Virus record (IMG/VR): IMGVR_UViG_3300048442_000453
Coordinates: 1-27,912 of that record
DNA: 27,912 nt
Source of the DNA: a virus
Reading direction: 5' to 3' (one strand)
Part shown: positions 3 through 20,684 of the stretch, piece by piece
How the letters are laid out: the number at the start of each line of letters is the position of its first letter
Numbering within the stretch: the stretch's first letter is position 1
Notes under the pieces: generated by a model
What the model was told of the DNA's origin: nothing
Databases searched by the model: none
What the model saw: the letters and a program-made list of their open reading frames with translations, nothing else
Translations under genes and position numbers: made by a program

Positions 3-1154
3 GAGGGGACGCACGAATTCACCCCGGAAATAGACGAGGGCACCTTTTGGCAGAGTACCGATAAGACCTACAAGCATCGCAAGCGCGAATATGTGCAGGA
101 AAACAATTACCAGTTTATTACCGGCGATCAGCAGTTTACCGCCGGGGGGACTTCGACTTGGGGCGCCAACCAGCATGAGTTCAGCGCTGCCGTTGATTTC
201 ACTATCAACGCAGGAGATGACTTTGACGCAACGGCCGGTGACCGTATCGGCCTTTACCCCGGGGGCGATCTTGAGATAACCGCAGGCGATGACGTGTATA
301 TCCGGGCCGGTGACTTTGCCCGGTTATGGTCTGACGCAGATATTTTGCTAAGAACCAGTAACAATGACATTGATGCTGAACCATCTAAAGCGTTCCGTAT
401 CTTTTTTAGTGACACGTATGCCACAGACCCTAGAGCAGACCAAGGCTTCGAAATTTGGGATAACCAATTAAATCAGCGGTATTTCCACGCCCCGGTCATC
501 GGTGACATAAAAGTAAGTTGGGGAAAGCTGTTTGTATTGTCTAACGGCACAGACGTAACAACGATAACGCTCGACCCGAATACAGAAACCATCACCGCCG
601 GGAACATTGTTATTGACGGTGACGCAGAAACGATTACATCAGGCACAGTCACGATTGATGGTGGCAACTCGACCATCGAAACCGGGCTTGTGTCAGTTGA
701 TGGGGTCGCTGGCACTGTCACTGCTAACGGCGTTGTATTAACCGGGTCACAAGACCTAAGCGGGGAGCTTGCTGCTCTCGAGCAATCACTAACAGCACTT
801 ATCAACGCAAAAGTTGGCGAGGCACCGGAGGACGGAAAGACTTATGTACGACAGAATGCAGCATGGACTAGTGTTGATTTGGGGCTTGACCTACTGGTAT
901 ATCCTTTTGACGGTGGCCTAAGTGACACGGTTTATTTTGCAGAAACTATGGACGGTGGGGCATCTGACACGCTCGTTTTCGATGATGCAATTTCGCCGGT
1001 CATAGGTGGTACAGCAGGAAGCACTTACGAGGTTAGCCCACTGATTTCCGGGGGTGCTAACATGTCCACGGTAGACGGTGGTAATTTCAACATTGACGGT
1101 GGCCGATCTGCCACAAATCTATTTTCAAGTAACTTTGACGGAGGAGCCGCCTAA
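3..1154 (+). CDS. Fibre-like virion protein, 5' end cut by window edge
   Basis: The reading frame is open from the first complete codon of the window to TAA at 1152-1154, so the gene begins upstream; a GTG at 93 is in frame but has no clear ribosome binding site. The 383 visible residues are Asp/Gly/Thr-rich with short repeated turns (for example TAGD, TIDGG), suggesting a beta-helical or beta-stranded fibre shaft. Near residue 275 it has PEDGKTYVRQNAAW, a motif common in phage tail fibres and spikes. The last 80 residues carry repeated DGG motifs and end in FDGGAA. The next gene starts on the stop (TAATG), and that gene is also fibre-like. Location next to head and connector genes is unusual for a tail fibre, so a head fibre or decoration is possible. 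Exact function unknown. Confidence 0.6.
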   Translation, partial: EGTHEFTPEIDEGTFWQSTDKTYKHRKREYVQENNYQFITGDQQFTAGGTSTWGANQHEFSAAVDFTINAGDDFDATAGDRIGLYPGGDLEITAGDDVYIRAGDFARLWSDADILLRTSNNDIDAEPSKAFRIFFSDTYATDPRADQGFEIWDNQLNQRYFHAPVIGDIKVSWGKLFVLSNGTDVTTITLDPNTETITAGNIVIDGDAETITSGTVTIDGGNSTIETGLVSVDGVAGTVTANGVVLTGSQDLSGELAALEQSLTALINAKVGEAPEDGKTYVRQNAAWTSVDLGLDLLVYPFDGGLSDTVYFAETMDGGASDTLVFDDAISPVIGGTAGSTYEVSPLISGGANMSTVDGGNFNIDGGRSATNLFSSNFDGGAA

Positions 1155-2407
1155 TGGCTACGAAAATTCAAATTCGACGGGATACGGCGGCTAATTGGAC
1201 GTCTAACGACCCAGTACTATCACTCGGTGAGCAAGGTTTTGAGACTGACACCAACAAGGTAAAGATTGGCGATGGTGTAGCTGCATGGTCGGCCTTGGCG
1301 TATGTATCCGGGGGAAGTAGCAAGCTGGAAGTCCAAGACCCCACGGTGGACAATGAATACTACATTTACGTAGGTGCGCCAGCGAATGCGCTATCGCCCA
1401 TTGCCAACCTGAACAACACTCAAACCAACTATGAATACGATCAGTCTTTTGCCACAGCGCAAGAGGCGTTTAATTTCATTATGGCGAATGACTGGGCAGC
1501 CCCAGCTATGTACGAAGGCGAGGGAATGTCTACCCCCAAGATCGTCGTTGCTTTTGAGGAAAACGTGGTCCACGCAATGAATGCCACTCTTATACTTCAA
1601 GACGTACAAGAGACAGTCCAGATAGTAAGCCAGAATGCTGTAAACCCCCTGGGCTATCAGTCTGCATCGCAAGCCACTTTTGGCACTAGCGCTTCAGAGC
1701 TTGTATTCTGGAATTGCAATTGGGTTGGCATCGGCGGCGACCTAATCTTTGAATGCAACGTAAAGGTTGAGCAGGGTTCGCATGTTTATGACGCAGAAAG
1801 CAATGAGTGGAATGATTACACGCTTTACAATGCCGCTCTAAGCGTTCAAAACGATTCCACCATGAACCACTCTAACCATGGCTTTATCGGCACCACACTA
1901 ACTGTTAGACAAAACAGCTTTTACAAGGCGGCAGACATTGAAGCGAGCACTTCGGTCATTGTTGAGAGGTCATCCAAGCTGTTTTGCTCTACCTATACAA
2001 AGGCTCCTTTGTTCCGGGTTGGGGAAAGTACGCTAAACACCTCCACACTTGAAATCACCACCGGGTCGACTGGAACAAGCTTGTTTGATGCTGGCTCCGA
2101 TGTTTTTTGCCGTAGCACCTTTACAGATTCTGGTAGCCCGGGCGCAAGCTGTTTTGTCAGCGAAGGCACAACTATGTCGGCTAGCAGCTTCGTGTTTACC
2201 GCCCCTGTCGAGATTTTTGTTAATGGCGCGCTCTATAACAGCACATACTTTGCTTCGATTAACGCTGGCTTTTGTGCATTTGGCGATGTTGTCTTTAAAT
2301 CCAGATCGAACACCGGGTTTGCAGCGCCATTGATGCCAACGGCCGACCCTGTTGATGGTGGGCGCACGTTCTACCTAAACAACGGCGTAATGACACTGAG
2401 CAGCTAA
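1154..2407 (+). CDS. Spike/fibre-like protein with Mtd_N-type N-terminal domain
   Basis: 417 residues. Residues 1-50 (IQIRRDTAANWTS, then GEQGFETDT, KIGDG, AW, LAY) match the pattern of the Mtd_N domain found at the N-terminus of Bordetella phage tropism determinants and many phage fibres. The remainder is rich in Ser/Thr/Asn with a regular spacing of small beta-forming stretches, compatible with a right-handed beta-helix. A VDGGRTFYLNNG segment lies near the C-terminus, echoing the DGG motifs of the previous gene. The start codon overlaps the previous stop (TAATG), so the two are probably translationally coupled and may form one structure. It lacks an obvious C-type lectin fold, and no reverse transcriptase is visible, so there is no sign that it is a diversified receptor binder. 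Confidence 0.65.
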   Translation: MATKIQIRRDTAANWTSNDPVLSLGEQGFETDTNKVKIGDGVAAWSALAYVSGGSSKLEVQDPTVDNEYYIYVGAPANALSPIANLNNTQTNYEYDQSFATAQEAFNFIMANDWAAPAMYEGEGMSTPKIVVAFEENVVHAMNATLILQDVQETVQIVSQNAVNPLGYQSASQATFGTSASELVFWNCNWVGIGGDLIFECNVKVEQGSHVYDAESNEWNDYTLYNAALSVQNDSTMNHSNHGFIGTTLTVRQNSFYKAADIEASTSVIVERSSKLFCSTYTKAPLFRVGESTLNTSTLEITTGSTGTSLFDAGSDVFCRSTFTDSGSPGASCFVSEGTTMSASSFVFTAPVEIFVNGALYNSTYFASINAGFCAFGDVVFKSRSNTGFAAPLMPTADPVDGGRTFYLNNGVMTLSS

Positions 2408-4801: not shown

Positions 4802-5965
4802 ATGTCTGTAACTTTGACTGATTTAATACCAGACCTTTATGTCAGCCTCGACGTAATTTCGCGTGAAATGGTTGGCATGATCCCGTCTGTAAGCATTGAC
4901 GCGCAGGTAGCTAGAGCAGCTATCGGTCAACAAGTACGCACGTTTGTAGCACCTGCTTCAACTGCTGACGATATTATCCCCGGAGTTATCCCCCCGGATG
5001 ATGGTGACCAAGCTATCCTTAACCGATCTATCACTGTGCAAAAGTCTCGCCGGGTTCCTATCCGCTGGACTGGTGAGAACGATCGCGAATCTGCATTTAA
5101 TGCCGGGTCAATCCGACAGCAGCAAATCCAGCAAGCTATGCGCACACTGGTTAACGAAATCGAAGCCGACTTGTATACTGCGACAGCTTTGAAAGCTTCG
5201 CGCATGTACCGATCTGCTGCGCCTACCGTTACACCTTTCCGCACTGCTAACGAGTGGACTGATGCAGCGAATGTTCGCAAAGTTCTTATGGATAACGGAA
5301 GCCCTTTAAATGACATTTCAATGGTTATGGACACTGCCACTGGTGCGTCACTGCGCGGCTATCAGGCACAAGTCAACACGTTTGGCTCTGACCAACTTCT
5401 GCGTCAAGGCGTTTTGCTTGATGTGGGCGGCATGGCACTGCGCGAGTCTGCTGCGGTATCTGCTGTTGCATCTTCCGCGTCTGGTTTAGTAATGGCCGCA
5501 ACTGGTGGCGAAGCTGCTGGCGCGACTTCTATTGCTGTAACCGAAGCTGAAGCTGGTGACGTTGTATTGTCAGCTGGTGACTTAATTGAAATTGATGGTC
5601 ACGCCGAGCTTTACATGGTCGTTGCGGGTTCAACTGTAAGCACCTCCGGTACAGTACAAATCGAAGGTCCAGGACTGAGCAAGCCACTGTCAGGCGGCGA
5701 AGTAATTACCGTTGCAGAAGCTGGTGTACGAAACGTTGCTTTCCAGCGTGGCGCTGTCATCTTGGCTAGCCGTTTACCTTCAGTACCAGAAGGCGGCGAC
5801 TTGGCCCAAGACCGCACCACTATCACTGATCCACGTAGCGGGCTTTCTTTTGAAGTTGCTATGTACCCACAGTATCGCCAGATGCAATGGGAAATCAGTG
5901 CTGCATGGGGCGTTGGCGTAATCAAGCCAGAGCACGTAACTGGTCAGCTTCATAGCGTAATCTAA
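4802..5965 (+). CDS. Major capsid (coat) protein, P22 gp5-like
   Basis: 387 residues with the hallmarks of the P22 coat family: an N-terminal stretch ending VGMIPSVSID, then AAIGQQVRTFVAP, IPPDDGDQ, a VQKSRRVPIRWTGEN strand, QAMRTLVNEIEADLY, VLMDNGSPLNDISMVMDTAT and LLRQGVLLDVGGMALRESA. Residues about 220-305 (rich in Ala/Gly/Val, with AGDLIEIDGH) correspond to the inserted I-domain of P22-type coats. It forms the HK97-fold shell around the genome. Strong binding site AAAGGAAAC precedes the ATG. The scaffold lies immediately upstream and a terminator immediately downstream, suggesting a high, separately tuned transcript level. Confidence 0.9.
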   Translation: MSVTLTDLIPDLYVSLDVISREMVGMIPSVSIDAQVARAAIGQQVRTFVAPASTADDIIPGVIPPDDGDQAILNRSITVQKSRRVPIRWTGENDRESAFNAGSIRQQQIQQAMRTLVNEIEADLYTATALKASRMYRSAAPTVTPFRTANEWTDAANVRKVLMDNGSPLNDISMVMDTATGASLRGYQAQVNTFGSDQLLRQGVLLDVGGMALRESAAVSAVASSASGLVMAATGGEAAGATSIAVTEAEAGDVVLSAGDLIEIDGHAELYMVVAGSTVSTSGTVQIEGPGLSKPLSGGEVITVAEAGVRNVAFQRGAVILASRLPSVPEGGDLAQDRTTITDPRSGLSFEVAMYPQYRQMQWEISAAWGVGVIKPEHVTGQLHSVI

Positions 5966-10798: not shown

Positions 10799-11183
10799 CG
10801 TCACCAAACAAACCTTTGACCTGTCTGCGGATCAAGCTAAAAACGGCGCGCTTTTGCTAGACCTAACCACGCCCGGGAACGCTGGCTGCAAGCTGATGAT
10901 ATTTACAACGACTAACGCAATCGCTGCCGAGTTTGAGCTTGCAAGTGGCGCGGGGTCGGTCGACGTAAGCGGCAGGTTGATTTTAGACATCATTGAACCA
11001 GAAGCCACAATACAGATCGGCGGCATCGCGCAATATGCTGAGATACGCAGGGCAGACAACAGTATCTTTTGCAGCATCCCGATAACCAAAGCGTCCGTAC
11101 CTGTCGCCGGCTTCCTTACGCTGGTGTCGACCACGTTGATTACTGGCGCAAAAATAAACATCGCATCACTCGAGGCTAACTAA
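10791..11183 (+). CDS. Unknown tail protein
   Basis: 130 residues, predicted all beta, beginning MPNVTKQTFDLSADQAKNG with many Ala/Ile/Val strands and ending AKINIASLEAN. It overlaps the preceding gene by eight bases and its stop overlaps the next ATG (TAATG). No motif I can name. Position inside an unbroken tail operon between the putative tail tip protein and a beta-roll fibre makes a structural role likely. Confidence 0.55.
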   Translation: MPNVTKQTFDLSADQAKNGALLLDLTTPGNAGCKLMIFTTTNAIAAEFELASGAGSVDVSGRLILDIIEPEATIQIGGIAQYAEIRRADNSIFCSIPITKASVPVAGFLTLVSTTLITGAKINIASLEAN

Positions 11184-12712
11184 TGGCTTTACTATTCACA
11201 AATAACGCATCGACTACCCTTACCGGTGACTATCTAATCGGTGACACGACTGTCGTGGTTAATGACGGAAGTGCTTTTGCCATTCCTGCCAATGGTGATG
11301 TGCAAAAAATTACCTTTGAAAACCAAGCGACTGGCGAGTTTGAAATCTGCCATTTGACTAGCCGCGCTGTTGACACGCTGACAATACTCCGGGCGCAAGA
11401 GGGTACGCAGTCGATAGACTTGCCCAGTGCTGACATTATTGTTGAGGCTAGGCTTACCGCAGAGTGTATTGCCGGGCAGTTTGACCCCGACGGTGGCGAG
11501 ATTGCGCTTGGCACCAATTCAAATGCGGCAGGCACAAGCTCAATCGCTATCGGTGAGAATGCTGCGGCAATCGGAAACTTTGGCGTAACAAGTGGTTACT
11601 CGAGTCAAGCAAGCGGCCAGTACGGAGTTGCATCCGGGGGATTTGCGCGAGCATCAGCGTCATATGCTGTAGCGGTTGGATTTTCTAACCTAGTGAGCGG
11701 CGAGTCCGGTGTTGCTGTAGGCCATAGCAATACAAACCCCGGAGCTAGAATCAGCGTAATCGGTTCGAGCAATACCGTCACAGGTGGGCTAGACAGTGCC
11801 ATTGTCGGCACAGCTAACGCGGCAACAGACTGTGAGAACACTGGCGTTGTAGGCAATAGCAACACGGTCGAGGGTTCGAGAAACCTAGTGCTTGGTAATA
11901 ACAACACCGTCGACGGTAATAAAACAATTGTTGCGGGTCAGTACATCACAACCGATGCTCCCGAAACGACTTTAGTTATGGCTAAGGAAGTGCAGGAGCG
12001 CGACTTAGAAACATCGGTACAGGCATCTGTCGTGTTTGGCGACAGGTCAATTGCTCACCGCACCGGCAAGTCTAATTCACGCAATAATGGAACCTTGATA
12101 CCGCCTAGTGCAATCAGTATGGCGCAAACCGCATTCGGGAGCGCTATCGACCTTGGGGTGGTACGAACATTTACGTCCCTGGGCAGTTTGCCTGTCGGGG
12201 TCGTTAGCGGCACAATCTGGAGTGATAATGGCTCAGGGCAGTATGTAAGCATCGGCAACCCGATTTACGCTGACGGAACTGGGGAGGGGGTATTTTACGA
12301 TGCATTACCGTCACCGCTTCCGACTAACCTTGCCGGTACGAATGACAACAATGTAATCCAAGGCGGCGTGACCGTTCACATCGACCCTAGCAATTACTAT
12401 TTCAATTTTGCGCAAGACGAAACCACAACTGATTCGGTCAAGTTCTTGGTGCAGGAATTTGGCGTGTATGTTTACGATTGCCCTTCCCAGTCTGGAACCG
12501 TCCAGATCGACTTTACAGAGGTCGTAAGCGGCGATGCTATTGGTAGCGTCAGTTTTACTCTATCGTCGCAGGGTGGGCCATTCTGCGTCACTGAGAGGGT
12601 TGCTGGCCTAGTACCCGCTGGCACCAGATATAAAGCCGCGATAAACAGCACCACGCTGACCGATTACTGCTCTGCCCGGTTATTCATACGCGGCTGCATG
12701 GTCAACGCGTGA
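11183..12712 (+). CDS. Tail fibre with YadA-like beta-roll head
   Basis: 509 residues. Residues 1-75 (TTLTGDYLIGDTTVVVNDGS...FEICHLTSRAVDTLTILRAQEGT) form a short attachment domain common at phage fibre N-termini. Residues about 107-255 are a run of 14-16 residue repeats of the SIAIGENAAAIG, YAVAVGFSNLVSG, SGVAVGHSNT and LVLGNNNTVDG kind, as in trimeric autotransporter heads (YadA/Hia left-handed beta-roll). The last 200 residues form a separate beta domain containing several cysteines. It is probably trimeric and surface exposed, suggesting cell-surface contact. It sits in the tail tip cluster rather than the fibre array further right. Confidence 0.75.
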   Translation: MALLFTNNASTTLTGDYLIGDTTVVVNDGSAFAIPANGDVQKITFENQATGEFEICHLTSRAVDTLTILRAQEGTQSIDLPSADIIVEARLTAECIAGQFDPDGGEIALGTNSNAAGTSSIAIGENAAAIGNFGVTSGYSSQASGQYGVASGGFARASASYAVAVGFSNLVSGESGVAVGHSNTNPGARISVIGSSNTVTGGLDSAIVGTANAATDCENTGVVGNSNTVEGSRNLVLGNNNTVDGNKTIVAGQYITTDAPETTLVMAKEVQERDLETSVQASVVFGDRSIAHRTGKSNSRNNGTLIPPSAISMAQTAFGSAIDLGVVRTFTSLGSLPVGVVSGTIWSDNGSGQYVSIGNPIYADGTGEGVFYDALPSPLPTNLAGTNDNNVIQGGVTVHIDPSNYYFNFAQDETTTDSVKFLVQEFGVYVYDCPSQSGTVQIDFTEVVSGDAIGSVSFTLSSQGGPFCVTERVAGLVPAGTRYKAAINSTTLTDYCSARLFIRGCMVNA

Positions 12713-15159: not shown

Positions 15160-15432
15160 ATGACTGACCCGCAAATAATCAGTAGGCTTGACAACCTTCA
15201 AGATGACATAAAAGAGATTTCACAAGCACTCGTGACTCTTGCGCGCATTGAAGAAAGGCAGTCCAGCACAAACACTAGCATAAACCGGCTTTATGACCGG
15301 CTTGATGCAAGCGATAAGCGCATAAAATCTCTGGAAGACGCCAAGCCCAGCCAGCTAGGCGTAAATGCGATGTGGGTGGCAATGTGCGCGATGGGGGCTG
15401 TAATAGGCTACCTTTTCAAGCTGGCGGTATGA
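15160..15432 (+). CDS. Small coiled-coil membrane protein, holin-like (XhlA type)
   Basis: 90 residues. ATG at 15160 is preferred (GGAAG at 15146-15150) over an in-frame ATG at 15100 that would lie inside the previous gene. Residues 1-60 are a charged coiled coil (RLDNLQDDIKEISQAL, INRLYDRLDASDKRIKSLED) and residues about 68-87 form one transmembrane helix (VNAMWVAMCAMGAVIGYLF). This layout matches XhlA-like holin-associated proteins. It overlaps the next gene, a second membrane protein, as ATGATG/TGA, so the two are likely made together for lysis. Confidence 0.6.
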   Translation: MTDPQIISRLDNLQDDIKEISQALVTLARIEERQSSTNTSINRLYDRLDASDKRIKSLEDAKPSQLGVNAMWVAMCAMGAVIGYLFKLAV

Positions 15433-15824
15433 TGGGCGTTGTCGAGCTAATAGCTGGCATATTCAAACCTGCTGCGCAGCTGATTGACGAGTTGCATACC
15501 TCTGAAGATGAAAGGCTTGCGCACAAGGCAAGTTTGCTTGATGTTCAGGCTGCGGCAATGGAGGTCGCACTAAAGCATGAAACAGAGCGGCTAACCGCTC
15601 GGGCTGAAATTGTTAACAGTGAAGCGCAATCCGAGCATTGGCTAACCGCCACTTGGCGTCCGATTACCATGCTGACGTTTTTGGCTTTGGCTGTCGGTGA
15701 TTCGATGGGCTGGCTGCAAGCACCGCTCCGTGACGAAGCGTGGCTGTTGCTTGAAATTGGGCTAGGCGGGTATATCGTCGGGCGCTCCGGTGAGAAGCTT
15801 GCCAAAACCATAATGAAAAAGTGA
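15429..15824 (+). CDS. Holin of the 3TM / GTA type
   Basis: 131 residues with start ATG 15429 overlapping the previous TGA (a second ATG at 15432 could also be used). The pattern IAGIFKPAAQLIDELHTSEDE, an amphipathic helix with LKHETERLTARAEIVNSEA, then SEHWLTATWRPITMLTFLA, a second hydrophobic helix near residues 101-118 and ...GRSGEKL at the end is typical of the 3TM/GTA holin family (conserved W-R-P block). It would form the membrane lesions that release the endolysin. Confidence 0.8.
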   Translation: MMGVVELIAGIFKPAAQLIDELHTSEDERLAHKASLLDVQAAAMEVALKHETERLTARAEIVNSEAQSEHWLTATWRPITMLTFLALAVGDSMGWLQAPLRDEAWLLLEIGLGGYIVGRSGEKLAKTIMKK

Positions 15825-15833
15825 GCCTAGCGA

Positions 15834-16397
15834 ATGGCTGTCACAATTCAAGTACGCCGCGATGTTGCAGCTAACTGGGCAAGCAGAAACCCTGTTCTTG
15901 AGCCGGGCGAAATTGGGTTCGAGACAGACACGCAGCAGATTAAAGTCGGGAATGGCTACCACGCGTGGAACAGTCTGCCCTATAGTTTTGGCAACCCTTT
16001 TGATTACATCAGCGATGGGCCAGCTGATAACTTTCAGTACGCAAGACAAAACGGGGCATGGGTTAAGGTTCAGGCCGGTGCAGGAGCGCCGACACGGACA
16101 ACCGTCAACGCAGGCAGTACTGCCGTGTTAGACACCCTGGACGCAACCGTTTACCGGTCGGCAAAGTGGATGATTACTGTTGCTGATACTTTTAACAATA
16201 CGTTTAGAACCCAAGAAACAATGGCTCTGCATGATGGGTCGGGGGCGAGCCACGTAAACTATTCTTTTTTTGGAACCTCATTGGCTTACCTTATAGACGT
16301 ACAGCTACTCAATGGGGAAATTACTTTGCGCTGCTCCAATAATTCCGGGGTCGCGTTGCAGGTCGATGCTGTGCAGGTCGCTAATTTAACAGTTTAG
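15834..16397 (+). CDS. Fibre protein with Mtd_N domain
   Basis: 187 residues. Residues 1-52 (IQVRRDVAANWAS, EPGEIGFETDT, KVGNGYHAWNSLPY) match Mtd_N and resemble the N-terminus of the protein at 1154. A short linker with ARQNGAWVKV, a common fibre motif, follows. The last 100 residues (VLDTLDATVYRSAKWMITV ... ETMALHDGS ... QLLNGEITLR) form a beta domain that resembles the C-terminus of the next protein. Probably a fibre subunit or receptor-facing tip. It opens the seven-gene fibre array ten bases after the holin. Confidence 0.7.
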   Translation: MAVTIQVRRDVAANWASRNPVLEPGEIGFETDTQQIKVGNGYHAWNSLPYSFGNPFDYISDGPADNFQYARQNGAWVKVQAGAGAPTRTTVNAGSTAVLDTLDATVYRSAKWMITVADTFNNTFRTQETMALHDGSGASHVNYSFFGTSLAYLIDVQLLNGEITLRCSNNSGVALQVDAVQVANLTV

Positions 16398-16406
16398 GGG
16401 AATAAA

Positions 16407-17687
16407 ATGGCTTTATCTTTTTTTGAGGTAGAACGCGGATTTTTACATAATGATGCTGGGATGATCGCTGGCGTTGGCGCACCTTCGGGCGCTGGCGATA
16501 GTGCTGAGGTCGGCATTGGTTCGATTTATCAGGACACAAGTTCTGGTGAGCTTTACATTAAACAGTCGGCTGGCGCTGGCGCTGCTAACTGGACACGATT
16601 GGCCGGTGCTGACGAAGTATCATCTAGCATCAGCTGGCGTGAACCTGCCAAGGTCATCGACTCAAGCGCTACATCGCTGCCTACTGGCACCGCCGGCAGT
16701 AGTGTAACGGTAGACGGTCAGAGCATTGGTGATGGTGAGCGAGTCCTTTTCGCGGCCCTCACAGCGGCTACTGGGCCAAATGTCTATATCTATGACTTAG
16801 CATCTGGCACGTTCTCGGAGGATGCCAATAACGAAACTGCTGGCGATACCGTCTACGTAGAAGCTGGTACTGGCGCGGGAAAGGTCTATAACTACAACGG
16901 GACTGACTGGGTTCTAACTAACCAGACAAACTTAGACGAGCTTGGATTTCTGCGAGCATTCGTCGGCAAATCTGGCACCGGTTCAGAGCTGCCCGACTAC
17001 TCAAGCGAAAACTACATAACAGACGGTGACAGCATTGAAACCGCTGTCGGCAAGCTTGACGCGCAGATAAGCACTAACGCATCTGCTATCTCGCAGGAAG
17101 TCACTGACCGTACTAACGGCGACAGTGCACTGCAATCAGAGCTTGACGCTACTCAGTCAGGCGGTGGCTTAAACGCCGATGGTACGTATAGCGCCTCCGG
17201 GTCAGCTAACTACATTTCGACTGCTACCAGCCTCAAGAACGCTGATAACCTGTTGGACGCACAGCTGAAGTCAACTCAGGATGACCTCGATGCTTTAGAA
17301 ACAAGCTCCGCTGCATCTGGGGCTAAACTCGACCGCGCCCGTACAGAAACTTCAGACACGGCTGTTACTACTGCTACCACTGTTGATTCGGTATCTGTTG
17401 ACGAGACTGCGCTTTGCAAGTGGATTGTCCACGTACAGGGCAACCAAGCTGGTGACGCTGCTAAAAAGCAAGTTGTCGAGGTATTGGCAACTCACGATGG
17501 GCATTCTTCTGCTGATGCAACGCAGACTGATTACACGGTTTACTCAAAGCTGCGTATCGGTAATGTTCAGGGCTTGCAGTTTTCTGTTGATGTAAGTGGC
17601 TCCGGTGCTGCACAAGTTATGCGGTTGCGAGTTCAGTCAACCACTAGCTGCGATGTGCGCGCTATCCGGGAAGTTACTAACTTCTAA
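16407..17687 (+). CDS. Tail fibre protein
   Basis: 426 residues preceded by AGGGGAAT. The N-terminal 70 residues contain GSIYQDTSSGELYIKQ...NWTRL, a small head domain common in phage fibres; residues about 100-175 form a second beta module; residues about 200-320 are helical/coiled (ENYITDGDSIETAVGKLDAQ and NLLDAQLKSTQDDLDALE), probably the trimeric shaft; the last 110 residues (CKWIVHVQGNQAGDAAKK, VEVLATHDGHSSADAT, LRVQSTTSCDVRAI) resemble the C-terminus of the preceding fibre. Its stop overlaps the next ATG (TAATG). Confidence 0.75.
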   Translation: MALSFFEVERGFLHNDAGMIAGVGAPSGAGDSAEVGIGSIYQDTSSGELYIKQSAGAGAANWTRLAGADEVSSSISWREPAKVIDSSATSLPTGTAGSSVTVDGQSIGDGERVLFAALTAATGPNVYIYDLASGTFSEDANNETAGDTVYVEAGTGAGKVYNYNGTDWVLTNQTNLDELGFLRAFVGKSGTGSELPDYSSENYITDGDSIETAVGKLDAQISTNASAISQEVTDRTNGDSALQSELDATQSGGGLNADGTYSASGSANYISTATSLKNADNLLDAQLKSTQDDLDALETSSAASGAKLDRARTETSDTAVTTATTVDSVSVDETALCKWIVHVQGNQAGDAAKKQVVEVLATHDGHSSADATQTDYTVYSKLRIGNVQGLQFSVDVSGSGAAQVMRLRVQSTTSCDVRAIREVTNF

Positions 17688-17983
17688 TGAGCCAAGACCG
17701 AGCCTTTGAGACCGACGAGTTACTAATCGGTGAAGCGGCCAGCATTCTCACTGGGAGTGCTGACCCGCGTTCGCCGCCCTTGTCGCGTCCCATTGGCTCG
17801 ATCTACTTACGGACAAATGGTACTCTTTGGCAAAAGACTGGCTCCGTTGCTAACCAATGGACTCAGTTAGAAGCTGGTGACGGAAATACCGGCGAAGCTT
17901 ACGGAAATGATGATGGGGGCAGGGCGGCGTCAATATATGGCGGCACCACTGCTATAGACGGAGGCGGGGCTAGTGGCACGTAA
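17687..17983 (+). CDS. Short fibre-head protein with DGG end
   Basis: 98 residues. Residues 25-65 (SPPLSRPIGSIYLRTNGTLW, NQWTQLEAGDG) resemble the N-terminal head of the preceding fibre, but there is no shaft. The C-terminus is a Gly-rich tail with DDGG, YGG and IDGGGASGT. It may be an adaptor or decoration subunit of the fibre. Its end overlaps the next gene's GTG start by 11 bases. Confidence 0.6.
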   Translation: MSQDRAFETDELLIGEAASILTGSADPRSPPLSRPIGSIYLRTNGTLWQKTGSVANQWTQLEAGDGNTGEAYGNDDGGRAASIYGGTTAIDGGGASGT

Positions 17984-18260
17984 CATACAGCTAAGGCGCG
18001 ACCCGGCTAGTACGTGGACAACCGTTGATCCGATACTCGCAGAGGGCGAGATTGGCTACGAGTTAGACACCGGCAAGTTAAAGGTGGGCAACGGGACTGA
18101 TAATTGGTCAGACCTACCTTATCGCATATCTACAATTCACAACGATTTGACTGGTCGGGGGACAGCTGATGCCCACCCGATCAACGCTATTACCAACCTA
18201 CAATCAAGCCTTGATGACCGGCTTACCTTTACTGATACTATTGACGGAGGCGCATTCTAA
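17973..18260 (+). CDS. Short Mtd_N protein with DGG end
   Basis: 95 residues starting at GTG 17973 inside the end of the previous gene. Residues 1-48 are a clear Mtd_N match (IQLRRDPASTWTTVDPILAE, YELDTGKLKVGNGTDNW). Then NDLTGRGTADAHPINAITNL, a standard fibre segment, and a short end TIDGGAF. With only a head domain and a stub it looks like a minimal fibre adaptor. TAATG overlap with the next start. Confidence 0.65.
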   Translation: MARNIQLRRDPASTWTTVDPILAEGEIGYELDTGKLKVGNGTDNWSDLPYRISTIHNDLTGRGTADAHPINAITNLQSSLDDRLTFTDTIDGGAF

Positions 18261-19099
18261 TGTCGCAAACAATTACAATTAAGCGAAGTACAACGACGAG
18301 TGTCCCAAGCTCACTAGAAAATGGTGAGTTGGCATATTCACAGTCAAGCAAAAAGTTATTCGTTGGCCGTCCGGGTGGCGGTACGGGTGACGTTGATGCA
18401 ATCGGCGGTAAGTTTTACACCGACAAGATTGATAACAACAGCGCTAACTGGGACGCAGGTTACAATGACAAGATCAACTCAGCATCATTTAACACGGCTG
18501 ATGGTGTTCTTACCCTTACGCAGCAGGACGGTGGTACAGTAACCGCCGACCTCGATGGGCGGTATCTCACAAGCTTTACCGAGAGTGACACCCTGGACGA
18601 TGTAACTGGTCGGGGCGCAACAACCTCAAACAGCATTACCGTTGGCGGTCTATCTGTTACCGGTAACCTCACCGTGTCCGGAACGACTACCTCGGTTAAC
18701 ACTGAAGAAGTCAACATCGCCGATAACTTTGTGCTGCTGAACAGTAACGTAACCGGCGCACCTTCAGAAAATGCTGGCATCGAGATTGAGCGCGGCACCG
18801 GAACCAATGTACAGATTCGGTATAACGAGACTTCTGACAAGTGGGAGCTTACTAATGATGGGTCTAGCTTTGACGATATTGCCACAGGCGATTCAGTTCG
18901 CACAGATAGCGAAATCATTGGGCTGGTTACTGCTGGAACCCAGAGCAATATTTCTGTTACTGATGGGACTACTGGGGTCGATTTTGCAGTCCCGACTGCA
19001 ACAGCGTCTGCGTTGGGTGTAGCTTCATTTGACACCCCGGACTTTGCTGTAACTGCTGGTGCTGTTAGCATCAACCGCGTTGACGGTGGTACGTTCTAA
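18260..19099 (+). CDS. Fibre protein, cyanophage-structural-type repeats
   Basis: 279 residues. The N-terminus (ITIKRSTTTSVPSSLENGEL, SQSSKKLFVGRPGG) is related to the Mtd_N-type head. The middle has LTQQDGGTVTADLDGRYL and TGNLTVSGTTTSV, then NFVLLNSNVTGAPSENAGI, IEIERGTGTNVQIRYNE and DKWELTNDGSSF, a module I know from many marine-phage virion proteins. It ends with INRVDGGTF. Likely trimeric beta-strand fibre. It starts on the previous stop. Confidence 0.7.
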   Translation: MSQTITIKRSTTTSVPSSLENGELAYSQSSKKLFVGRPGGGTGDVDAIGGKFYTDKIDNNSANWDAGYNDKINSASFNTADGVLTLTQQDGGTVTADLDGRYLTSFTESDTLDDVTGRGATTSNSITVGGLSVTGNLTVSGTTTSVNTEEVNIADNFVLLNSNVTGAPSENAGIEIERGTGTNVQIRYNETSDKWELTNDGSSFDDIATGDSVRTDSEIIGLVTAGTQSNISVTDGTTGVDFAVPTATASALGVASFDTPDFAVTAGAVSINRVDGGTF

Positions 19100-19102
19100 G
19101 CT

Positions 19103-19720
19103 ATGACAGCGCGCATACAGTTACGCCGGTCGTTTACGGCCGGTGCTGTTCCCACAACAGGGCAGATTTGGAATAGTGAGCTTGCTTACAATGTTCCCGA
19201 TGGGAAGCTGTACGCAAAGAAAACTGTCAATGGCGTTGAGTCGATCATACTTATTAACAGCAGTGGCGGGGGCAGCACAGACCCCGACCCGGTTGTAAAG
19301 TGCCAGCTGACCACTAATAACCAACTCAACTCGACCGCAACTTATACCCGGCGAAATGTATTTAATACTTCCCCTGCGTTTAACGTGGGTGGGTTTACTG
19401 TAAGCAGCACTGGGATCGAAGTGCCTAGTGCTGGGAAATATGTTTGCTTGGCAACTATCTTTGTCACCAACGACAGGGAAAAGGCAGACGTGGGGGTCGC
19501 GTTTGGGATCAATGACCAAAGGCAGTTTGATGCTTTGGCGGCGACCGGGTACACCCGCGACAGGGATGGCCACGAAGAAAGCTCAACTAACCTGACGTCA
19601 GTTTACAACTTGACTGCTGGCGACGAAATTAACCTTTTCTTTGCGCGCATTGCTAGGTCGGGGTCGAGTAACGTAGAGCTTCAAACCACCAGCAACGTGT
19701 CTATCTTCAAGCTGGTCTAG
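19103..19720 (+). CDS. Fibre protein with C1q-like C-terminal domain
   Basis: 205 residues, ATG three bases after the preceding stop. The N-terminal 50 residues (IQLRRSFTAGAVPTTGQIWN, ELAYNVPDGKLYAKK) are a degenerate Mtd_N-type head. Residues about 70-205 form a C1q/TNF-like jelly roll: FNTSPAFNVGGF, TGIEVPSAGKYVCLATIF, GYTRDRDGHEESSTNL, LTAGDEINLFFARIA. Such trimeric jelly rolls are found at fibre tips and bind surface polymers or proteins, so a receptor-binding role is plausible. Confidence 0.7.
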   Translation: MTARIQLRRSFTAGAVPTTGQIWNSELAYNVPDGKLYAKKTVNGVESIILINSSGGGSTDPDPVVKCQLTTNNQLNSTATYTRRNVFNTSPAFNVGGFTVSSTGIEVPSAGKYVCLATIFVTNDREKADVGVAFGINDQRQFDALAATGYTRDRDGHEESSTNLTSVYNLTAGDEINLFFARIARSGSSNVELQTTSNVSIFKLV

Positions 19721-19728
19721 GGGGATCA

Positions 19729-20319
19729 ATGGCCTATTGCAAAGTTACCGATGGGGTGGCTCAGTATTACACGCTTGGCCTTTTGCGCCGGGAGTTGCCA
19801 GAAGGCGCAGAGATAACTCCCGAAGTTATGGCGGCAAACTCAGTGTTCGCTGTAACAGAATCGAGTGTGCCTGATTACGATATAAAGACGGAGCGAGTAG
19901 AGCAGCAATACGATTTTATCAATGACGCCTGGACACTTGTTTGGCATGTTGTTCCGAAGCCCGATGTTGAGCTAATCAGCAACGCAGTCGCCAAAGCTAA
20001 AGCGGATCGAAAAGACGTAGAGCAAGGTGGAGTGGTTTGGCAGGGGTACACATTCGACACCAGCGAAGAATCACAGGCTAGGCATAACGCCGCGGCGACC
20101 GCCATATCGCTAGGGCTAAGGACTGGCGGCGTCTGGAAGGCCAAAGACGAGGACGGTGACACCGCCTTTGTTGATATGAGCAATGACGATCTTATCGCGG
20201 TAACTCAGATCATATATAACCACGTACAGGGCTGCTTTGAAGCTGAGGCAATGGCCGTGGCTGCTATTCAGGGGGGCGATCTGTCGGCAACCTTTGCCGA
20301 TTATTTCGCAGCCTATTGA
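19729..20319 (+). CDS. DUF4376-containing fibre-associated protein
   Basis: 196 residues. Residues about 100-185 (VWQGYTFDTSEESQARHNAA, ISLGLRTGGVWKAKD, FVDMSNDDLIAVTQ...HVQGCFEAEA) fit the DUF4376 pattern found at the end of many phage tail fibre or fibre-assembly proteins. The N-terminal part resembles small tail-fibre assembly proteins. Binding site TAGGGGGA. Its TGA overlaps the endolysin's TTG start. It closes the fibre array, so a chaperone or fibre-assembly function is likely. Confidence 0.7.
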   Translation: MAYCKVTDGVAQYYTLGLLRRELPEGAEITPEVMAANSVFAVTESSVPDYDIKTERVEQQYDFINDAWTLVWHVVPKPDVELISNAVAKAKADRKDVEQGGVVWQGYTFDTSEESQARHNAAATAISLGLRTGGVWKAKDEDGDTAFVDMSNDDLIAVTQIIYNHVQGCFEAEAMAVAAIQGGDLSATFADYFAAY

Positions 20320-20684
20320 GTGACTACTTCACAATTGAAGAATTGGCGTGCAAGCATTGTGGCGCTTATAAGTTCGACCCTTACTTTCTGCAGCTGTTAA
20401 ATGCGCTGCGCCACCAGTTCGGTGGCCCCCTCCGGGTTAGCTCGGGCTACAGATGCCCAGATCACCCAATCGAAAAAGGCCGCGAGACACCGGGGAGTCA
20501 CACCACCGGAAAAGCTGCAGATATTCAAGTCGATCACGGCGATGCCATTAAAGTAATTGCGATTGCCCATAGTCTAGGCATCGAGCGTATTGGCGTTCAG
20601 CAATATGGTTCCGGTCGATTTATCCACCTTGATATATGCAAAGATCGCCTTACCCCTGCCCTCTGGAGCTATAGCACCCGCTAA
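20316..20684 (+). CDS. Endolysin, M15-family peptidase
   Basis: 122 residues starting at TTG 20316, coupled to the preceding TGA (TTGA); no ATG or GTG is in frame nearby. The sequence shows the M15 (VanY-like/DUF-M15_3) signature: FTIEELACKHCG at the start, RVSSGYRCPDHP (40-51), GSHTTGKAADIQV (60-72) and RFIHLDI (101-107). H62, D69 and H104 are the expected zinc ligands. It cleaves peptidoglycan cross-bridges or stem peptides (D-alanyl or L-alanyl-D-glutamate type not decidable here). No signal peptide, so it needs the holins at 15160-15824 for release. Confidence 0.85.
   Translation: MSDYFTIEELACKHCGAYKFDPYFLQLLNALRHQFGGPLRVSSGYRCPDHPIEKGRETPGSHTTGKAADIQVDHGDAIKVIAIAHSLGIERIGVQQYGSGRFIHLDICKDRLTPALWSYSTR

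Follow-up and report, generated by a model that had tools for sequence, protein, structure and literature searches.

A probable serial fibre encoded by consecutive genes

We analysed a virus record of 27,912 bases (IMG/VR record IMGVR_UViG_3300048442_000453, a linear fragment; the whole stretch is referred to below as the window), which carries six fibre-type genes in succession, f1 to f6, with the boundaries first predicted for them, and a second fibre pair, gA-gB, at its left edge, all on the plus strand. We propose, with a probability of roughly 0.7, that this array encodes a serial fibre, in which a short C-terminal end containing Asp-Gly-Gly (DGG) on one protein would plug into a socket formed by the head, of Mtd_N or KR type, of the next gene's trimer. 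Sequence families, pairing statistics, a codon bias and a comparison of tail hubs were observed directly; the physical docking of DGG ends into Mtd_N heads, the trimeric state and the order of the fibre are what we infer from the pairing seen here and elsewhere among phages, from the hub comparison and from docking described for phage JBD30. The original prediction had suggested either assembly in series or several receptor specificities. Assembly in series is the better-supported half: DGG tails pair with following heads much more often than by chance, both within the window and across many unrelated phages, and a homologous hub, that of JBD30, is reported to dock by its C-terminus into the trimer of the next gene. 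Several specificities found no direct support, and f6 is alone among f3-f6 in lacking a tail, which is what a single tip would lead one to expect.

DGG ends precede heads in the window

Among the 39 plus-strand open reading frames (ORFs) of at least 60 residues in the window, DGG falls within the last 13 residues of only four, gA, f3, f4 and f5, and all four directly precede a head gene (5 heads in 39 ORFs; P ~6e-5, computed post hoc with the pattern already seen). The 'DGG stubs' predicted for this array are thus real in f3, f4 and f5, and gA, which had not been listed, has one too. The 5'-truncated gA (3..1154) contains a foldon-like region, and its C-terminus, rich in DGG, ends in FDGGAA*, the proposed plug; its neighbour gB (1154..2407) consists of an Mtd_N head and a variable body with no plug. 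In the larger array, f3 (17687..17983; 98 residues) joins a head of the GSIY type to the end IDGGGASGT*, and f4 (17973..18260; 95 residues, GTG start) joins an Mtd_N head to IDGGAF*. Then f5 (18260..19099), the start of which overlaps the f4 stop (TAATG), has a KR-type head, a shaft and the end VDGGTF*, and f6 (19103..19720) has a KR-type head and a C-terminal domain, again with no plug.

In the arrangement that we propose, f3 would dock on f4, f4 on f5, f5 on f6, and gA on gB. Both chains probably assemble in this way, with the two plugless proteins, f6 and gB, at the distal ends as tips. Consisting of scarcely more than a head and a plug, f3 and f4 would be adaptors.

The two genes at the start of the array are built differently: f1 (15834..16397) has an Mtd_N head, a foldon-like linker and a C-terminal beta domain, and f2 (16407..17687) has a GSIY head, a shaft and possibly the same domain. 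The 'shared beta domain' of the original prediction is clear in f1 (leave-one-out E 6e-5) and marginal in f2 (E 0.22). Each of the two is followed by a GSIY-head gene, a pairing that recurs in one other lineage (loci L004, L005 and L007, and partly L006). A second kind of joint, between a beta-domain end and a GSIY head, might link f1, f2 and f3, and we offer it only as a suggestion, because in L304, L117 and L114 the gene after a beta-domain protein is of another kind and has no GSIY head, a pattern scan of genome contigs returned 11 stretches of which none is a fibre head like f2 or f3, and a tblastn search of phages for the pairing gave no match.

For f6, a C1q-like jelly roll had been predicted. 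Its C-terminal domain has no Pfam match at E<=1 and no sequence match in the PDB, and its AlphaFold2 (AF2) model, with a confidence of about 55, has no Foldseek match at E<=0.001; profile and fold searches gave the C1q reading no support. A match (1.7e-14) was obtained between f6 and the C-terminal end of phrog_28263, a family of tail fibres.

Head families

The N-terminal heads repeat across consecutive genes, as had been predicted. Pfam Mtd_N (PF18454) matches f1 (9e-15), f4 (3e-13) and gB (9e-16) above its cut-off, and these three heads are 51-54% identical across 50-70 residues. The heads of f2 and f3 are homologous and form one GSIY family, each recovered by a leave-one-out hidden Markov model (HMM) at E 1e-9. 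Mtd_N itself was not found in f5 or f6 by the Pfam search; both belong to a head family with the signature KR..GELAIN (whole-protein E 1e-5 for f5, for which the domain E is only 1e-3, and 1e-14 for f6), to which gp37 of phage T4 also belongs (E 1e-10). Compared one to one by hhalign, this KR-type family and the Mtd_N heads are related at a probability of 95.6% (E 1.2e-8). Hence, of the four array genes predicted to start with Mtd_N 'or related' modules, f1 and f4 have Mtd_N by Pfam, and f5 and f6 (predicted at 18260 and 19103) are related to it by profile comparison; the count of at least five Mtd_N-type copies, gB included, holds if 'related' is allowed. A structural model of f4 resembles the hyaluronidase HylP (2c3f; E 1.9e-5, probability 1.0, template-modelling score 0.47 on the query) and, weakly, Mtd (1yu1; E 0.11, probability 0.97). 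The longest DNA repeats found in the stretch are only 19-25 nucleotides (nt), so the modules have diverged and are not recent duplications.

Tail-head pairing in viral contigs

We counted the same pairing in viral contigs, in samples that are neither random nor corrected for a tree. Contigs in the first set were selected by their heads, without regard to tails. They yielded at least 116 matches, of which nine were dropped (5 internal, 2 without a start, 2 at an edge), leaving 107 N-terminal heads; four of these have no upstream ORF, and in 46 of the remaining 103 the upstream ORF ends in strict DGG. With heads defined by HMMs and a broader definition of the tail, the matches listed comprised 92 tails with a head next, 14 tails with none, 62 heads with no tail before them and 881 with neither; dereplication gave 51, 9, 37 and 671 (odds ratio 103, among the matches listed). 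The dependence holds within head genes: again among the matches listed, a tail is present on 32/40 of those with a head next versus 5/79 without, or 17/21 versus 4/56 after dereplication. HMMs replaced a first regular expression for heads, which missed some and counted false ones; that expression gave, for head genes, 15 with tail and next head, 2 with tail only, 0 with next head only and 74 with neither (32, 5, 8 and 74 by HMM), and for capsid-related loci (set L004-L067) a table of 0, 1, 4 and 539.

In a second set, of contigs selected by tails, 289 genes among the matches listed have a strict tail and 155 of them have a head next; the corresponding figure for genes that lack the tail is 89 of 1728. 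Separately, L107, L150, L142 and similar loci have phage proteins of about 85-100 residues that end in VDGGTF or IDGGTF, and in these the next gene is not head-like.

Named phages and tail hubs

Records of named phages were chosen from hit lists before the upstream gene was examined, with BPP-1 added as namesake, giving 19 Mtd_N-type heads (T4 was not counted among them, nor was S-CBS1 gp06/gp07, annotated mtd and without a tail, where the start of gp07 is not Mtd_N-type by eye). A strict DGG end precedes 11 of the 19: those of DLP_3, phiST, Shambre1, Ranunculus, Popper, Epa19, DoCa6, TZGordon, Yuma, NrS-1 and 315.1. The background in the same loci is 1 in 113 other ORFs of at least 100 residues, and that one, Ingrid gene 20, itself stands before another head gene.

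Another line of evidence comes from tail hubs. All three hubs with an Mtd_N fibre gene next (Epa19, DoCa6 and DLP_3, taken from Mtd_N hit lists) end in DGGGA, versus DGG ends in 0 of 9 homologous hubs without an Mtd_N neighbour, which were picked from 60 of 700 records (one of the nine has no next gene on that strand; in the RcSpartan hub a DGG lies about 28 residues from the end and was not counted). The BL5 hub is 60% identical to that of Epa19 and has no tail, and the hubs of DoCa6 (53%) and DLP_3 (34%) have one; in these hubs the tail thus tracks the neighbouring gene rather than ancestry. The hubs of JBD30, Tom33, PSA39 and BL5 (L473, L469, L468 and L466) end in other Gly-rich tails, LGGVSA, LGGL and YGGA, and the genes after them start differently, those of JBD30 and Tom33 alike; perhaps such ends represent a second class of plug and socket.

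DGG codons and ribosome-binding sites

At three of the four junctions in the window, GGAGG lies within the DGG codons 8-9 nt before the next start: in gA at 1140..1144, 9 nt before gB, where the ribosome-binding site is read in frame as D-G-G; in f3 at 17960..17964, 8 nt before the GTG of f4; and in f4 at 18246..18250, 9 nt before f5 (all on the plus strand). The f5/f6 junction has GGTGG, farther from the next start. In those ORFs of viral contigs whose stop overlaps the next start, GGA encodes the first Gly in 68 of 111 cases among the matches listed (3 of 114 had been dropped as lying in short frames); for Gly-Gly pairs in the interior of these ORFs the figure is 55 of 457, likewise among the matches listed. 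In overlapping pairs the DGG codons, mostly GAY-GGA-GG, would thus double as the ribosome-binding site of the next gene. A scan without the overlap placed all 120 of the matches listed in long or contig-edge open frames; DGGTF* used GGA in 14/88 of these with no start in range versus 20/32 with one. We take this to mean that the peptide is kept where no ribosome-binding site is needed, and that the codons are tuned when both are; the ribosome-binding site would be only part of what DGG is.

Exchange between relatives

The original prediction spoke of interchangeable subunits and called for comparison of C-termini between relatives. A search for close relatives of the f1-f6 region found none, and only one locus, L009, covers gA-gB; its major head protein is 90% identical to that of the window. 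At gA-gB the comparison does show swapping: ~250 residues at the start of gA, and likewise the gB body, have been replaced or have diverged strongly. The tail of gA (residues 252-383, its C-terminal 132, 71% identical) and the head of gB have stayed together as a single block of ~72% DNA identity, like the genes of the capsid region (73%). Such a block is what a plug-socket joint between swappable parts would leave, and linkage would leave it too.

Weighing the alternatives

Could the DGG end be a by-product of a Shine-Dalgarno sequence for the overlapping next gene, with the heads acting as independent virion anchors and no serial docking? The three GGAGG sites of the window and the excess of GGA in overlapping pairs are what this would predict, and yet we consider it quite improbable: the end persists, with ordinary codon choice, in at least 88 cases with no start in range, f5/f6 has GGTGG, and head genes in head-selected contigs carry the end mainly when another head comes next. 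Moreover, a ribosome-binding site can be read in three frames, and would not by itself account for the Asp and the C-terminal aromatic residue. It is likewise unlikely, if less so, that tails and heads are both generic to fibre genes, which cluster, such that their pairing reflects neighbourhood and not docking. Both features do occur in fibre cassettes, and many tails in the tail-selected sample have no adjacent head: 134 of 289 strictly tailed genes among the matches listed have no detected head next, and head genes carry a tail in 52/157 without a head next versus 49/52 with one. Against this explanation, in head-selected loci the tail of a head gene depends on the next gene being a head, and among homologous hubs, too, which are not themselves fibres, presence of the tail varies with the gene that follows. 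A third explanation, that the genes encode alternative receptor-binding proteins (RBPs) of several specificities that compete through a shared head for one virion site, draws on the half-identical heads of gB, f1 and f4 and on the mosaic divergence of gB from L009; we consider it very improbable, given that f3 and f4 leave little space for a receptor domain and that f3 to f5 end in plugs, not tips.

The serial fibre has its own difficulties, among which are the tail-selected counts just given. Within the window, the head gene f1 has no DGG tail on the gene before it, and in the model of the f4 monomer the plug has a predicted local distance difference test (pLDDT) score below 50. Only one of 508 adjacent pairs in capsid-related loci (set L009-L067, 4-21 kb about a capsid gene) joins a tail to a head, presumably gA-gB of L009, and three other DGG ends in these loci lack a following head; none of the pairing counts takes account of phylogeny. 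Of the 19 named-phage heads, three follow variant ends only (LDDGAP in S-CBS1, LDGNPG in Eddiemania, LGGIA in BPP-1) and five follow no tail (Commandaria, P-SSM7, P-RSM6, Kabocha and Ingrid 19->20). The small Mtd_N head profile made here misses the Mtd of BPP-1 (E 1.8), the namesake of the family. As to possible precedents, the RBP of JBD30 bears, in place of Mtd_N, a head made up of a helical bundle and beta sheets, and gp36 of T4 ends in DFGYY, not GG. A structure with a DGG end in an Mtd_N socket was not found, and PDB searches with T4 gp36, the T4 gp37 head, a short tailed protein and the KR-head profile returned no useful structure.

Other features of the window

The entire fibre cassette, f1-f6 plus a gene for a DUF4376 protein, lies between a holin (15372-15824) and an endolysin (20316-20684), in the region 15372-20684. 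The DUF4376 gene (19729..20319, plus strand), which follows f6, matches PF14301 (1e-12) and phrog_10508 'tail fiber protein' (3e-20), and is a possible fibre assembly factor; gB is followed by a tail-completion gene. Since f5 and f6 share a frame, with one TAA and one sense codon between them (19097-19105), a read-through product is conceivable. Foldon-like (Fibritin_C) stretches just under the Pfam cut-off lie at 16002-16073 in f1 and 645-875 in gA (6e-4; 20.4 bits versus a cut-off of 21). The window also encodes a scaffold, a tape measure protein and a major head protein (4802-5965), residues 232-304 of which match the distal-tail-protein profile phrog_1302, suggesting an inserted domain. 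A protein with a YadA head and beta-roll (11183-12712), the N-terminus of which matches tail-fibre families, is a separate fibre candidate.

Comparison with known systems

More broadly, we can imagine, at about even odds, a general code in tailed phages: a D-G-G-x-(F/Y/A/P) C-terminus would fit heads of the Mtd_N superfamily, other Gly-rich ends would fit other heads, fibre and hub proteins would follow one another as their genes do, and acquiring the plug would let any protein take up the fibre of the next gene. If so, the joining partners, order and tip of a fibre could be predicted from sequence alone (a short peptide and a small head), the swapping of fibre cassettes at plug/head borders would be explained, and one attachment principle would serve T4 gp36-gp37, BPP-1 Mtd, streptococcal HylP and many marine and actinobacterial phages. 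We found no prior description of such a C-terminal tag in the openly accessible literature, subscription papers and preprints being outside that scope.

Among the closest parallels is JBD30 gp53/gp54 (PDB: 8rk3): in a cryo-electron microscopy report, the hub is docked by its C-terminus at the centre of the trimer of the RBP, the product of the next gene (PMC11445458). The Epa19 hub is a homologue of gp53 (6.7e-109), so that the family to which gp53 belongs is found with DGG ends and next to Mtd_N genes as well. On the other hand, gp53 itself ends in ELGGVSA and pairs with a DUF2793 protein; with a partner head other than Mtd_N, it is a precedent for the principle only. The long tail fibre of T4 is serial and trimeric, with gp36 reported to bind the N-terminal region of gp37 (PMC3004832), and gp37 has a KR-type head; the make-up of the T4 subunits is different. 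In BPP-1, Bbp9 and Mtd are products of adjacent genes, and the N-terminal beta-prism of Mtd presumably attaches to the fibre protein (PMC10743442); the Bbp9 tail is a variant, however, and Mtd is the target of a diversity-generating retroelement. Lastly, HylP.1 of streptococcal phage 315.1 has an Mtd_N-type head, and the tail-fibre gene upstream ends in LDGGNQ and overlaps its start; this system has one step only and an enzymatic tip.

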